Of a DNA stretch of 64,000 nt, positions 46,251 through 54,738 are shown in pieces. The stretch is taken from assembly GCF_006716355.1 (NCBI RefSeq), contig NZ_VFOW01000001.1, forward strand, positions 4,712,001 to 4,776,000, in the 5' to 3' direction. A model generated the notes under the pieces. It saw only the letters and a list, made by a program, of their open reading frames with translations. It made no database searches and was not told the DNA's origin. This DNA comes from Stackebrandtia endophytica (GTDB taxonomy: Bacteria > Actinomycetota > Actinomycetes > Mycobacteriales > Micromonosporaceae). Numbering within the stretch: the first letter of the stretch is position 1; every line of letters begins with the position of its first letter. The position numbers and the translations under genes are program-made.

Positions 46251-47756
46251 TCACCGGTGGCGGGTGAGCAGGGCGACGCTGAGGCCGCGCAGTTGCCAGT
46301 GTTCGGTCACCGTGAAGTCGGCGCGCAGCCGGGACTCCTTCGATCCGCCCAGATCCGACAGCACATCGGGTGGGTTCTCGAACCGGATCACCCAGACCCG
46401 GTCGACGGTACGCAGCACATCGGCGTCGGAGGTTTCAGTGGCCAGGAACCGGCCGTTCTCACGCTGTTCGGTCAATGCGAACACGTCGTCCGGTTGTGCG
46501 TGGACGGGAACATAGGCGGCGACCAGGTCGCGAGCCTCCCACGGGACCACGGGCTCGGCGAGGTTCACCACCAACGCGTCGCCGGGTCGTGCGTGCTCGG
46601 TGATGACGGCGGCGACCGCCCGGGTGTCGTGGCCGTGCCCGCTGGTGCTGCGAACATCGAGGTGGGCCAGGGTTCCGGCACCCGCCACCACACCGAGGAT
46701 GAGTACGAGGACCACCCCGTGGACGCGCGGTCGCCACGTGGGTGAGCTGAACGCCCGCGCCGCCAGCAGCACCCAGGCGGGCATCGTGAAGAGGAGATAA
46801 CGCGGGAACCACAGATCGCTGACCTGGGCCACCAGCAGCAGTCCGATCGTCGGGGCCACCGCCCAGCTCAGCAGGGCGACGGTGAGCCGGTCACGGTGCC
46901 GCAGTATCGAGACGGCCGCCAACGCCAAGACCAGGATCGCCACCGTATGAGATCCGAACAGAACCGTGGGCAGCCTGGCGATGCCGGCCACCGATATCGG
47001 CTCGATCCAATCGGTTTGTCCTATCTGGTGTGTTCCGATGATCATCAACGGTGTCAGCGCCAGGATTGCGGCGGCGACGGCGAGCAACCACCGGCGCCAC
47101 GACCCACCCAGGGCCACGATCATGACGGCGTGACCGGCCAGGAGCAGCAAGCCCATCAAATGAAACGCCCCCAACGCCGTCACCGCGGCGGCGTACCCGA
47201 TGAACCATGGGTGTCGACCGGATTCGGCGGACCGGATCAGCAGCCACCCGGCGAGCAGCGACAGCGCGACGACCAGGGCGTAGGCCCGCGCCTCCTGTGC
47301 GTATCGACTGACCACCGGCAGCAGGACGAAGATGATCCCGGCGGGAATGGCCCACCTGAGGCCACCGAGACGTTGACCGATCATCGTGACCAGCGCGGCT
47401 GAGGCGACGGTCGCGACGGTCGCGGGAAGCCGCAGCGCGAGCTCGGAGGTACCCGCGACGGCGGTCCAGGGTTTCAGCAACAGGTAATAGCCACCGTTGA
47501 CGGCATCGGTATTACCCAACAACTGAAACAGGTCCGGCCAGGTCAACCGGACGGCCGCCCAGGTTGCCAATTCGTCGGCCCACATGCCCGGCCGGGTGAT
47601 CCCGGCGAGCCCGACCGCCAGCATCGCCACGGCGATCAGGACGGGAACCGGGATGCGGGTAAGGGCAATCGGGCGCGCCACGGCGCCGAAGTCTAGGTGG
47701 CGACGGTGAACACGGTGGTTGCCGAAGTTGGCCGCGTGGTTGACATTGCTGGACAT
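46251..47756 (-). CDS. GT39/PMT-like polyprenol-dependent membrane protein
   Basis: A 501-residue protein with about ten transmembrane segments. The first loop GMWADELATWAAVRLTW, with its acidic pair, and LGNTDAVNGGYYLLLKPW resemble mannosyltransferase-type GT-C enzymes. The C-terminal 130 residues form an extracytoplasmic domain (ARPGDALVVNLAEPVVPWEAR). Sugar and acceptor unknown. It differs from the GT39 protein at 14703. It is leftward with its own start, and diverges from the sulfite-reduction operon across a leader region. Confidence 0.8.
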   Translation of the reverse strand: MSSNVNHAANFGNHRVHRRHLDFGAVARPIALTRIPVPVLIAVAMLAVGLAGITRPGMWADELATWAAVRLTWPDLFQLLGNTDAVNGGYYLLLKPWTAVAGTSELALRLPATVATVASAALVTMIGQRLGGLRWAIPAGIIFVLLPVVSRYAQEARAYALVVALSLLAGWLLIRSAESGRHPWFIGYAAAVTALGAFHLMGLLLLAGHAVMIVALGGSWRRWLLAVAAAILALTPLMIIGTHQIGQTDWIEPISVAGIARLPTVLFGSHTVAILVLALAAVSILRHRDRLTVALLSWAVAPTIGLLLVAQVSDLWFPRYLLFTMPAWVLLAARAFSSPTWRPRVHGVVLVLILGVVAGAGTLAHLDVRSTSGHGHDTRAVAAVITEHARPGDALVVNLAEPVVPWEARDLVAAYVPVHAQPDDVFALTEQRENGRFLATETSDADVLRTVDRVWVIRFENPPDVLSDLGGSKESRLRADFTVTEHWQLRGLSVALLTRHR

Positions 47757-48112
47757 TCGATGAGCCGGTCATACGGTGAATGCCATTGTGGCTGCCCGAC
47801 CTCAGGGGACAGCTGCGTCCGGCCGGTGAGATCGACACGGTTGACGGTGGCGCCGACGGGCCGGTTGTGCAATGCTTAGCGCATGTCTTCCGCACTGCGT
47901 CTTCGGCTGGTGGCTCGTCGCCACGTCGATTACGGACGCATGTGTAGTTCGCTGTGTCGGTTGGTCTGATCGCTCGCCAGCGTCGCCTCACAGCGCTATT
48001 GCTTGTCACGCATCGCCATTGAAGGCTGCACCGGTCCGGGCGCGTAACCCGCTCGGCCGCCGCCGTCCGTGCTGCTACGCGCCGCCATACCGCATCGCGC
48101 ACAAGGAGCACC
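47757..48112 (+). other. Leader region of the sulfite/APS reduction operon
   Basis: About 350 bases containing the small leader-peptide frame (47883-47969). Downstream an 8-bp stem GGCGCGTA/TACGCGCC (48039-48046 with 48076-48083) lies before the AAGGAG of the reductase. I see no other gene. It presumably also holds the divergent promoters. Confidence 0.5.
47883..47969 (+). CDS. Cys-ending leader peptide of sulfur operon
   Basis: A 28-residue frame starting MSSALRLRLVARRHVDYGRM and ending CSSLCRLV. The RRHVDYxRxxSSLCR pattern is the one known from short leader peptides upstream of actinobacterial sulfur genes. Ribosome pausing at the late Cys codons is thought to control attenuation there. 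It ends 143 bases before the sulfite reductase start. A Cys codon-based attenuator of this operon is therefore likely; no experimental support here. Confidence 0.7.
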   Translation: MSSALRLRLVARRHVDYGRMCSSLCRLV

Positions 48113-49765
48113 GTGTCCACTGCCACCCGAGGACGTGCGAAGGGACAGGGCCAATGGGCCCTGGGCCATCGTGAGCCCCTCAATCCCAATGAACAGTCTA
48201 AAAAGGATGACAATCCGCTGAACGTCCGTTCTCGCATCGAGAACGTATACGCCCGTGGGGGGTTCGACTCGATCGATCCCGCCGACCTGCGCGGGCGATT
48301 CCGCTGGTGGGGTCTCTACACGCAGCGCAGACCGGGTATCGACGGTGGAAAGACCGCGGTACTCGAACCGCACGAGCTGGATGACGAGTACTTCATGCTG
48401 CGCATCCGCATCGACGGTGGGCAATTGTCGATCCCGCAGCTGCGGGCGGTCGCCGAGGTCTCGACCCGGTTCGGGCGTGATTCGGCGGACGTCACCGACC
48501 GCCAGAACGTGCAGCTGCACTGGGTGCGCGTCGAGGACGTTCCCACCATCTGGCGCATTCTGGAGGATGTTGGACTGTCCACACAAGAGGCTTGTGGGGA
48601 CTGCCCGCGTGTCATCCTCGGCAGCCCGGTCGCCGGGGTCTCGGAACAGGAACTGGTGGACGCGCGGCCGTTGATCGATGCGATCACCAGTCGCTACATC
48701 GGTGACCGGTCGTTGTCGAATCTGCCGCGAAAGTTCAAGTCCGCGATCTCGTGGCTTCCCGACATCCCATACGAGTGCAACGACATCTCGTTCCTGGGTG
48801 CGGTCCATCCCGAGCACGGCCCCGGCTACGACCTCTGGGTCGGTGGCGGATTGTCGACCAACCCGATGTTGGCGGTGCGGATGGGCACCTGGATCGCGCC
48901 CGAACGGGTCCCCGACGTGTGGGCCGCCGTCGTCTCGGTGTTCCGCGACTACGGGTATCGACGGCTGCGCAACCGGGCTCGCCTGAAGTTCCTGATCAAG
49001 GACTGGGGCATCGAACGGTTCCGGCAGGTCGTCGAAACCGAGTACCTGGGGTATTCACTTCCGGACCTGGCGCCGCCGCCGGTTCCGGAACGACTGGAGG
49101 ACCACATCGGCGTCCACCGGCAGAGGAACGGCAAGTTCTACATCGGAGTGGCTCCCACCGTGGGCCGGGTCTCCGGCACCCTGCTGGCCAGGCTGGCCGA
49201 TATCGCCGAACGGCACGGCGCCGACCGGGTCAGTGCCACCCCGATGCAGAAGTTGTTGTTGCTGGACGTTCCGGAGGCCAACGTCGCCGCCGCCGTCGCC
49301 GACCTGGCCGAACTGGGGCTGGTGGCCGACCCGTCGCCGTGGCGACGAGCCACGATGGCCTGCACCGGTATCGAGTTCTGCAAGTTGGCCATTGTGGATA
49401 CCAAGGATCGTGCCACCGCATTGGTCGGCGAACTCGAACGACGAGTACCCGAGTTGGACACTCCGATCTCGATACACGTGAACGGATGCCCTAACGCCTG
49501 TGCTCGAACGCAAACCGCCGATATCGGTCTGAAGGGACAGTTGATGACCGTCGACGGACGGCAGGTACCCGGCTTTCAGGTGCACCTGGGCGGGGGAGCC
49601 GGGGTACACGCCGGTTTCGGGCGAAAACTGCGCGGTCTGAAGGTGACGTCGGCCGAACTCGACGACTATGTGGAGCGACTGACACGTCGCTACCTCGCCG
49701 GACGCAAGGCGACGGAACCGTTCGCCGAATGGGTGGTGCGCGTGGAGGAGGCCGAACTGCGATGA
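48113..49765 (+). CDS. Ferredoxin-dependent sulfite/nitrite reductase (sulfite type)
   Basis: A 550-residue siroheme/[4Fe-4S] reductase that makes sulfide from sulfite. It has the two-fold ferrite-reductase-like repeat (LSIPQLRAVAEVSTRFGRD). The cluster motif is CTGIEFCKLA (Cys-x5-Cys) then NGCPNACARTQ (Cys-x3-Cys). An N-terminal Arg/Lys-rich stretch is typical of actinobacterial SirA. The GTG start has AAGGAG five bases upstream. It is followed with ATGA overlap by a zinc-ribbon gene and then cysH, so the partner reactions support sulfite over nitrite. Confidence 0.92.
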   Translation: MSTATRGRAKGQGQWALGHREPLNPNEQSKKDDNPLNVRSRIENVYARGGFDSIDPADLRGRFRWWGLYTQRRPGIDGGKTAVLEPHELDDEYFMLRIRIDGGQLSIPQLRAVAEVSTRFGRDSADVTDRQNVQLHWVRVEDVPTIWRILEDVGLSTQEACGDCPRVILGSPVAGVSEQELVDARPLIDAITSRYIGDRSLSNLPRKFKSAISWLPDIPYECNDISFLGAVHPEHGPGYDLWVGGGLSTNPMLAVRMGTWIAPERVPDVWAAVVSVFRDYGYRRLRNRARLKFLIKDWGIERFRQVVETEYLGYSLPDLAPPPVPERLEDHIGVHRQRNGKFYIGVAPTVGRVSGTLLARLADIAERHGADRVSATPMQKLLLLDVPEANVAAAVADLAELGLVADPSPWRRATMACTGIEFCKLAIVDTKDRATALVGELERRVPELDTPISIHVNGCPNACARTQTADIGLKGQLMTVDGRQVPGFQVHLGGGAGVHAGFGRKLRGLKVTSAELDDYVERLTRRYLAGRKATEPFAEWVVRVEEAELR

Positions 49766-49908
49766 GTTCCCGTGCCGTCCCCTACTTCTGCCCCTACTGC
49801 GGAGACGAAGACCTGCGCCCCCACCCCGACGGCGGATGGCACTGCCGGGCCTGCACCCGGGTGTTCACCGTCAAGATGCAAGGACTGGTGATCGAAAATG
49901 ACCCGTGA
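49762..49908 (+). CDS. 48-residue zinc-ribbon protein between sulfite reductase and cysH
   Basis: A small protein starting MSSRAVPYFCPYCGDEDLRP and ending VFTVKMQGLVIENDP, with two CxxC pairs (CPYC, CRAC) forming a zinc ribbon. It is translationally coupled on both sides: its ATG overlaps the reductase stop and its own end overlaps the CysH start by 11 bases. I recall such a ribbon in the same position in other actinomycetes, suggesting a conserved accessory to the reductases. Its molecular role is unknown. Confidence 0.85.
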   Translation: MSSRAVPYFCPYCGDEDLRPHPDGGWHCRACTRVFTVKMQGLVIENDP

Positions 49909-50593
49909 CCCCTACGAACTGCGTGATCTCGCCCATGAGGCGGGTCGGAGGCTGGAGACCGCCACCGCCTCGCAGATCATCGAGTGGGCGGTCGTTGAGT
50001 TCGGTGAATCCTTCTGTGTGACCTCATCGTTCGCCGACGCGGTGCTGGTGCACCTGGTCTCGAGCGTGGCGCCCGGCGTCGAGGTGGTCTTCCTGGACAC
50101 CGGACTGCACTTCAACGAGACCCTCGGTGTCCGAGAACACGTCCGGCGTCGTCTGCCGGTCACGGTGCGGTCCATCACCCCGCCGCTGAGCGTCGGTCGG
50201 CAGGACGGCGAGTACGGGCCACGGCTGTGGGAGCGCGATCCCGACAGCTGCTGTGCCATGCGCAAGGTCGCACCGTTGGCCGACGCGCTGGGCGGCTATG
50301 ACGCCTGGGCCACCGGTCTGCGCCGCGACGAGTCACCGACCCGGGCCGACACCCGCGTCGTCGATTTCGACGCCACCCGTAAGAAGGTCAAGGTCTCGCC
50401 CATCGCGAGATGGACGCAGGCCGATGTCGATACGTATGTGGCACGCCACGACATTCCGGTCAATCCGTTGCTGTCGCAAGGCTACGGCTCGGTCGGATGC
50501 TGGCCGTGCACCCACCGGGTCGCGCCGGGGGAGGACCCGCGCGCGGGCAGGTGGGCGATGTTCGAGAAGACCGAATGCGGCATCCACACATGA
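49898..50593 (+). CDS. cysH: APS/PAPS reductase
   Basis: A 231-residue assimilatory reductase, forming sulfite from (phospho)adenylyl sulfate. The catalytic core includes the SSFADAVLVHLV strand near residue 44, DPDSCCAMRKVAPLADAL and YGSVGCWPCTHRVAPGEDPRAGRW. The CC...CxxC set marks a [4Fe-4S]-type, so APS is the likelier substrate. The end ECGIHT carries the catalytic Cys found in all CysH. Part of the operon from the sulfite reductase to the chelatase. Confidence 0.93.
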   Translation: MTRDPYELRDLAHEAGRRLETATASQIIEWAVVEFGESFCVTSSFADAVLVHLVSSVAPGVEVVFLDTGLHFNETLGVREHVRRRLPVTVRSITPPLSVGRQDGEYGPRLWERDPDSCCAMRKVAPLADALGGYDAWATGLRRDESPTRADTRVVDFDATRKKVKVSPIARWTQADVDTYVARHDIPVNPLLSQGYGSVGCWPCTHRVAPGEDPRAGRWAMFEKTECGIHT

Positions 50594-51399
50594 GACCGCC
50601 CGCGGTGCTCGTCGCCCACGGCAGTCCCGATCCCCGGTCGGCGCCGGTGGTGCGTGCCATCGCCGCCGCCGCCGGGGTGCGGGAGGCCTTTCTCGACTTC
50701 GATACGCCGACCGCCGACGACGTCCTCGCGGACTTCGTCGGGGACGGTCACCGGCATGCCGTCATGGTGCCGTTGCTGTTGACCGACGCCTACCATCGCC
50801 GTGTCGATCTGCCGCGTATCGCCGACCGGACGGGTGAACTCCTCGGGATGTCGGTCACGATCACCGCGACCGTCGGCGGCGCGCGACTGATTCCGGCGTT
50901 GTCGGCCAGGCTGCCGCCCGGAACCGATGCGGTCGTGTTGGCGGGGGCCGGAAGCCGTTCGAGCTCGGCGCTTGCGGAGGTGGCCGCGGTCGCGGCCGAA
51001 CTGGGTGATCGGGTGGGGCTGCCCGCCAGGGCGGCGTTCGCGGCGGCCGAGCCGTCGGTCACCGAGGCCGTCGGCCGGTTGCGTGACGAGGGTGCCCGCC
51101 GGGTGGCGGTGGTCTCGTACTTCGTCGCGGCGGGTCGGCTTCACGATCGGGTCGCGCGCCAGGCCGTCGAGGCAGGGGCGTCGGTCACACCGGTCCTGGG
51201 TCCCTGCCGGGAACTGGTGGACACGATCGTCGATCGCTACCGGGCCGTCTCGACGCCTTCGCCGGTTTCGGTGTCGTCGTCGGTGTCGGGATCCAGGCCG
51301 ACGCCGAGCCACTCGCGGCTCGAACGGGTCAGCAGCAGCACCGCGGTGATGACACCCAAACCCCACGCGGCGGCCCCCCAGTCGCCCCTGTCGGCCTGA
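50590..51399 (+). CDS. Sirohydrochlorin chelatase-like (CbiX) protein
   Basis: A 269-residue protein with the CbiX/SirB fold: AVLVAHGSPDPRS near the start (metal-binding His) and later VVSYFVAAGRLHDRV. It probably inserts metal into sirohydrochlorin for the siroheme of the upstream sulfite reductase. The ATG overlaps the cysH stop (ATGA). The last ~50 residues (Ser/Pro-rich PSPVSVSSSVSGSRP) are low-complexity and are simply antisense to the convergent gene, overlapping it by 163 bases. The usual end would be near RYRAV. Confidence 0.85.
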   Translation: MRPPAVLVAHGSPDPRSAPVVRAIAAAAGVREAFLDFDTPTADDVLADFVGDGHRHAVMVPLLLTDAYHRRVDLPRIADRTGELLGMSVTITATVGGARLIPALSARLPPGTDAVVLAGAGSRSSSALAEVAAVAAELGDRVGLPARAAFAAAEPSVTEAVGRLRDEGARRVAVVSYFVAAGRLHDRVARQAVEAGASVTPVLGPCRELVDTIVDRYRAVSTPSPVSVSSSVSGSRPTPSHSRLERVSSSTAVMTPKPHAAAPQSPLSA

Positions 51400-51662
51400 A
51401 ACAGGAAATAGCCGATGGGCAACCAGGCCAACTGACTGAACACCGCGATACCGCGCATGCCGGGGCGGCGTCGGCTCAACGAGTGGGCCGCTCCGCCCAG
51501 CAGTGCGGCGACGGCAACACACACCACGGCCTCGGCGAAGCCGGCGCCCGGTGAGGTCTGCGTCTCGGTGAAGCTCAACCACACCAGCCACAGCGCCATG
51601 CCGACCAGCCCGACCGCTTGCAACAACAGCGATCCCAGGGCGATCCGCAGGGGTGTGGACAT
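51237..51662 (-). CDS. Four-helix membrane protein
   Basis: A 141-residue membrane protein with about four helices (IALGSLLLQAVGLVGMALWLVWL, AEAVVCVAVAALLGGAAHSL, GIAVFSQLAWLPIGYFLF, WGAAAWGLGVITAVLLLT) and an acidic C-terminal tail (DPDTDDDTETGEGVETA). It is unrecognised but similar to small actinomycete membrane proteins. The ATG at 51662 (MSTPLRI) is preceded by GGCGAG; the alternative ATG is at 51710. Its 3' end overlaps the CbiX-like gene. Confidence 0.65.
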   Translation of the reverse strand: MSTPLRIALGSLLLQAVGLVGMALWLVWLSFTETQTSPGAGFAEAVVCVAVAALLGGAAHSLSRRRPGMRGIAVFSQLAWLPIGYFLFQADRGDWGAAAWGLGVITAVLLLTRSSREWLGVGLDPDTDDDTETGEGVETAR

Positions 51663-51741
51663 GCTCTCGCCGGTGATGGTGGACACGGCGTGGGGTGAAT
51701 CATTCACCATCTCAACTTACCGGGAAGTACAGTCGCAGGGC

Positions 51742-54044: not shown

Positions 54045-54461
54045 CTACTTCTTGGTTTCCCAGAAGATCTTGGCGATCTCGTCGATCTTGCCGAGCAGTT
54101 CGTCGGCGACGGTCGGGTCGGCCGACCCCTTGGCGCCCGAGGCACCGGCCAGCTTGGTGGCCTCGTTGACCAGGACGTGCAGCTGCGGGTACTTCTCGAA
54201 GTGGGGAGGCTTGAAGTAGTCCGTCCACAGGACCCACAGGTGGTGCTTGACCAGTTCGGAGCGCTGCTCCTTGATCATCAACGCGCGGGCCCGAAACTCC
54301 GGGTCCTCGTTTGCCTGGTACTTCTCGCAGATCGCCTTGACCGACTCGGCCTCGATCCGCGCTTGAGCCGGATCGTATACGCCGCACGGCAAGTCACAGT
54401 GGGCGGACGCGGTGGCTTGCGGGACGAACAGACGAGACGTCAGAAGATGCGAAAGGCGCAT
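54045..54461 (-). CDS. sodN: Nickel superoxide dismutase precursor
   Basis: A 138-residue precursor. The nickel hook HCDLPCGVYDP begins at residue 21; proteolysis before the His exposes the amino group that, with Cys2 and Cys6 of the mature chain, binds Ni. The rest is the all-helical SodN body (AICEKYQANEDPEFRARAL ... LWVLWTDYFKPPHFEKYP). The ATG follows GGAGGG; longer upstream starts have no support. Usually a SodX protease gene adjoins sodN, but none is seen here; the 20-residue leader must be cut by a protease encoded elsewhere. Confidence 0.95.
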   Translation of the reverse strand: MRLSHLLTSRLFVPQATASAHCDLPCGVYDPAQARIEAESVKAICEKYQANEDPEFRARALMIKEQRSELVKHHLWVLWTDYFKPPHFEKYPQLHVLVNEATKLAGASGAKGSADPTVADELLGKIDEIAKIFWETKK

Positions 54462-54738
54462 CAAACCCTCCAGCGTTAATCGACAATGATGATCTTTCGT
54501 GGCCGACCATACTCCGCTGACCACGTCAGAACAGATGGACTCGACACCTTGCCACAACCTGGTGGTGTGCCCGGCCTTGGGTGGTCGCGCCGTAGCGTGG
54601 GTCGCCATAAAAAGTGAATAATCCGGGCGCATAGACTCAAACCTCGACCGCCGGTGATCCCGGCGAACCGTCCCTCAACTCCCGGTTCACCCTTCAGCCG
54701 GAAGCCAGTATGACCATTGAAAGTGGAGTGAGGACTTC

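Follow-up and report, generated by a model that had tools for sequence, protein, structure and literature searches.

The operon for sulfite reduction in Stackebrandtia endophytica is preceded by a short open reading frame with cysteine codons at its end, and the question raised by this locus is whether the frame is a leader peptide through which cysteine supply controls the genes downstream. In this study, the window, a stretch of 64,000 nucleotides, was analyzed together with the corresponding loci of other actinobacteria. It is very probable that the frame is an ortholog of the mycobacterial leader Ms4527A and that ribosome pausing on it under cysteine limitation controls the sulfite reductase operon.

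The leader frame, its promoter and the operon

On the + strand of the window, the leader is read as a frame from the ATG at 47883 to a TGA ending at 47969, with 28 sense codons and the product MSSALRLRLVARRHVDYGRMCSSLCRLV. Residues 12-16 form an RRHVD block (47916-47930) that is invariant or nearly so in 27 diverse leaders and in 85 distinct leader DNAs. The two Cys codons lie near the stop, four codons apart and not consecutive, and both are TGT. The first is residue 21 (47943-47945), a position where mycobacterial leaders also have Cys, and the second is residue 25 (47955-47957), the core Cys, which is Cys in 85 of 85 leaders. The leader stop is followed by a spacer of 143 nt (47970-48112) that ends at the GTG start of the reductase at 48113, and the ribosome-binding site of the reductase, AAGGAG, was read from the sequence at 48103-48108, 133 nt beyond the leader stop.

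Four genes follow on the same strand, and they are joined by ATG/stop overlaps: a ferredoxin-type sulfite reductase of the NirA/Sir family (48113-49765; PF01077, PF03460 and NCBIfam); a small CxxC zinc-ribbon protein (49762-49908; NCBIfam and domain searches); cysH, encoding an APS/PAPS reductase (49898-50593; PF01507, and NCBIfam PRK02090 with 263 bits against a cutoff of 154); and a CbiX/SirB-type sirohydrochlorin chelatase (50590-51399; PF01903). Like the members of the Ms4527A family, the leader immediately precedes a nirA/sulfite reductase operon. The first-pass annotation had described a 28-codon, Cys-ending frame ahead of the sulfite reductase, with start and stop well before the AAGGAG, and an operon of sulfite reductase, zinc ribbon, cysH and chelatase; the coordinates, the distance and the gene content were all confirmed, the last by family matches and by the overlaps of the genes. 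Elsewhere in the window, the protein encoded on the - strand at 54045-54632 has HCDLPCGVY in its N-terminal part, which we take to be the nickel superoxide dismutase motif.

Upstream of the leader, an extended -10 element, TGc-AATGCT, lies at 47868-47876 with its last T at -7 relative to the ATG, and a -35-like hexamer read from the sequence, GTGGCG (47847-47852), lies 18 nt before the -10 hexamer; GTGG is enriched near the equivalent place in related leaders. The generic sigma-70 scan did not call this -35-like hexamer. Among 89 distinct leaders, xAnnnT ending at -8/-7 of the ATG was found in 86, as against 2 of 89 in a control shifted by 15 nt, with TGn ahead of the -10 element in 71 and C at -1 in 83. 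Because this signature stands at a fixed distance from the ATG, the mRNA is predicted to be leaderless with its 5' end at 47883, and 47883 is supported as the start codon; the comparison of upstream sequences thus indicates transcription from the A of the ATG. An alternative of 100 aa that starts at 47872 and is Cys-rich in a different reading frame was rejected: it had no family match, and its ATG falls within the -10 element.

Homology, distribution and selection of the leader

The NCBIfam model NF042936 (leader_Ms4527A), which was built independently of the present leader alignment, matched residues 9-26 of the S. endophytica leader at model positions 3-20 (E=1.9e-6). The score of 27.4 bits is under the curated cutoff of 45 bits, and the leader is therefore homologous to the family yet not called by the model. 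When all six frames of the genome were scanned with NF042936, 6 matches were obtained, of which the leader was the best at 9.4e-5 and the next had 1.46. Moreover, the A1 HMM, made from 27 aligned leaders of which the S. endophytica leader is itself one row, gave the leader as the sole strong match over the 5.66 Mb genome (E=5.4e-13; next 0.198). The putative leader peptide model NF042934 (cis_reg_atten) matched 26 of the 27 related leaders, and the S. endophytica leader scored 8.1 bits with it against a cutoff of 27. An Rfam scan of 47400-51700 gave no relevant match.

A further frame, MRTLLLTKRRAIDFCLIAGSLCCR, was observed outside the window in the same genome (G000:C1:3198689-3198763; L201:290-364). 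It matched leader_Ms5788A (NF042933) with E=2.1e-8, under the family cutoff, and it is followed by a rhodanese-type sulfurtransferase gene and by the gene for a small protein. A TACCGT element lies 7 nt ahead of its ATG, and its equivalent of the core Cys is UGU as well. The S. endophytica genome thus contains two or more cysteine leaders with homology to published families, this frame and the reductase leader included.

The first-pass annotation had also proposed that the same leader be sought before sulfur operons of other actinomycetes, and it proved to be widespread. A reductase protein search yielded 80 loci from named actinobacterial genomes, as well as further genus and family loci. Of the 79 loci with a sufficiently long upstream sequence, 75 had the leader ahead of the orthologous reductase; no leader was found at the other four (L050, L055, L065 and L073), which belong to two Saccharopolyspora, one Actinopolyspora and Saccharothrix yanglingensis. 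All 27 additional family loci checked carried it, some of them possibly from the same species as loci among the 80, and so did both congeners that possess the reductase. Order-wide, leader matches with E up to 1e-5 occurred in 266 of the 299 genomes, spread over 59 of the 66 genera, and in the majority of examined genera the leader precedes the sulfite reductase. Copies in other genera precede genes that resemble cysC, cysD, TauE-type exporter, transporter and siroheme synthase genes, these putative identities having been read from sequence and not from a family search. In addition, Streptomyces-like genomes, among them G222, G292, G346, G458 and G477, were observed to have between 3 and 12 such leaders each, which may represent an operon set co-tuned by cysteine.

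The peptide appears to be under selection, and some of its codons are biased as well. R12, H14, V15, D16, S22 and C25 are invariant across the 27 leaders, and the pattern R-HVD--R--S--C is kept despite only one or two Cys codons in most leaders (just one in 52 of 85). While the peptide remains constant, every CGN codon is used for R12 among the leaders and every GCN codon for the Ala before it, and this synonymous variation at fixed residues argues that the frame has been selected as a peptide and looks translated. Certain codons, in turn, are strongly preferred. Over 58 genus-level units, the core Cys is UGU in 61%, as against 5% of the Cys codons in the downstream reductases of these loci (counted per sequence, UGU is the core Cys codon of 70 of the 85 leaders and makes up 10 of the 398 Cys codons of the reductases). 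In the same units, the Ser three before the core Cys is AGC in 95% (background 21%), and the Arg six before it is CGU in 45% (background 6%). GTG and CGC codons are also enriched, and most leaders with UGC come from a single family-like group, to which Saccharothrix and Lentzea belong. This codon bias possibly reflects decoding speed, mRNA pairing or both.

Proposed mechanism and alternatives

Cysteine-limited pausing is the best-supported mechanism for control of the operon, with experimental demonstration only in Mycobacterium, and since the S. endophytica leader is the ortholog of the mycobacterial cysteine leader, the same use is most likely. Transcription would begin at 47883, the first base of the leader's ATG, and the ribosome would translate LVARRHVD..R..S..C. 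When charged Cys-tRNA is scarce, the ribosome would pause at the UGU at 47943 and mainly at the UGU at 47955, covering the end of the leader, and the pause would allow translation (or transcription) of the reductase and the three overlapping genes to proceed. When cysteine is ample, the ribosome would leave at 47969 and the operon would be dampened. Both the cysteine response and its sign are presumed from the mycobacterial work.

In M. smegmatis, cysteine leaders reportedly act via hidden ribosome-binding sites, and hiding of the ribosome-binding site, rather than Rho-dependent termination, would by analogy most likely be the output here. No intrinsic terminator, that is, a hairpin with a T-run, follows the leader, as a classical attenuator would have. 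The RNA from the leader to the reductase start codon did not fold more stably than shuffles (z=+1.4 and +0.7), pairing between leader and spacer was not above shuffles, and no consensus RNA structure was found in 131 anchored leaders. In a simulation, stalling of the ribosome at the core Cys did not on average open the ribosome-binding site, in a set where some Glycomyces starts are misassigned. A candidate helix hiding the Shine-Dalgarno sequence (48069-48076 with 48104-48111) had an energy no better than shuffles; a helix hiding the AAGGAG can be drawn by eye in two congeners too, with changed bases, and three sequences are insufficient to establish it. A candidate intra-leader helix between the first codons and those before the core Cys gave a family-level z of -2.1, the best of many comparisons. 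Pairing of the leader end with its own ribosome-binding site, compared with those of other genera, reached z of about -2 to -3 at the genus level; it is not claimed here because z was only about -1 at the family level. Individual cases of such pairing are striking: in loci L100 and L105 the codons just past the core Cys are perfectly complementary to the reductase ribosome-binding site over 8-9 bp (CCCGGTGCA with TGCACCGGG), and these loci offer a good test system for the hidden-site model.

The competing output, Rho-dependent termination in the spacer, would have the paused ribosome block Rho loading and its release at 47969 expose the spacer. The absence of a terminator hairpin and the lack of support for an RNA-fold route in this analysis are consistent with such an output, which was proposed for mycobacterial cys leaders by Seliverstov 2005 (PMC1262725). 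However, the spacer shrinks to about 60 nt in Glycomyces, which leaves little room for a Rho site, and the mycobacterial work of Canestrari 2020, as cited in PMC13236596, reportedly favours hidden ribosome-binding sites. Termination by Rho is regarded as rather unlikely.

A tentative reading, held to be about as unlikely as the Rho output, is that the nascent chain assists arrest: R-HVD--R--S in the exit tunnel would stall the ribosome at the single core Cys codon, and the peptide rather than a run of Cys would give the sensitivity. Many positions from 5 before to 11 after the H are near-invariant, though 52 of the 85 leaders have a single Cys, and HVD lies 9-11 residues from the core Cys, a spacing similar to the one in known arrest peptides. 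Constraint on the mRNA may, however, account for some of the conservation, as seen in the Ser codon bias and the enrichment of GTG and CGC described above. Nascent-chain arrest is compatible with the pausing explanation and would refine it. A wider form of the idea, slightly more doubtful still, is an actinobacteria-wide cysteine-sensing arrest peptide, in which LVARRHVD..R..S would stall ribosomes at a single rare UGU kept by selection; no more than one or two Cys codons would then be needed, and the mycobacterial cluster would be derived. The single-Cys leaders pose a clean question in this respect: does Cys-tRNA shortage act alone, or does the conserved nascent peptide act too?

A role of the peptide as a small protein acting in trans would agree with the strong conservation but is very improbable, as the leader lies directly upstream of sulfur genes, the tails past the core Cys are unrelated, the N-termini are variable, and Streptomyces-like genomes hold several copies. 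Several short frames overlap the leader region, but a chance open frame is refuted by the conservation together with the family matches and the promoter signature, and its probability is negligible.

Relation to known cysteine leaders

Cysteine-limited pausing on the leader can be set beside several described systems. A response to cysteine is described for short, leaderless polycysteine frames of M. smegmatis (Canestrari 2020 Mol Microbiol, as cited in PMC13236596 and PMC9094748), and the leader of nirA/MSMEG_4527, Ms4527A, was described by Shell 2015 (PMC4633059, Fig 7C). The first-pass annotation had noted a resemblance to known actinobacterial sulfur leaders, and this view was upheld, as the leader fits the published cysteine-responsive class in homology, in its start site, in position and in the genes that follow. 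The S. endophytica leader adds a member to this known type of switch and does not constitute a new system. Its significance is that the mycobacterial cysteine switch is extended to a Glycomycetes-type genome, with the same leader before the sulfite reductase in most sampled genera.

Residue by residue, the S. endophytica leader aligns with the mycobacterial leaders LVARRHVDFKRVCSCCCLP, which precede the same downstream gene. Ms4527A shares with it LVARRHVD..R..S..C, the downstream gene family, the leaderless start (predicted for S. endophytica) and the near-terminal Cys. However, the S. endophytica leader has two Cys four codons apart and three residues after the core Cys, whereas the mycobacterial form has three or four clustered Cys and two residues after the core Cys. 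The Ms5788A leader (NF042933), which stands before cysA2, is similar in architecture to the S. endophytica reductase leader but belongs to another locus with another downstream gene. The leaders predicted by Seliverstov 2005 (PMC1262725) are likewise short frames that end in Cys and stand before cys operons lacking terminators, and they were confined to Mycobacterium, Propionibacterium and Bifidobacterium.
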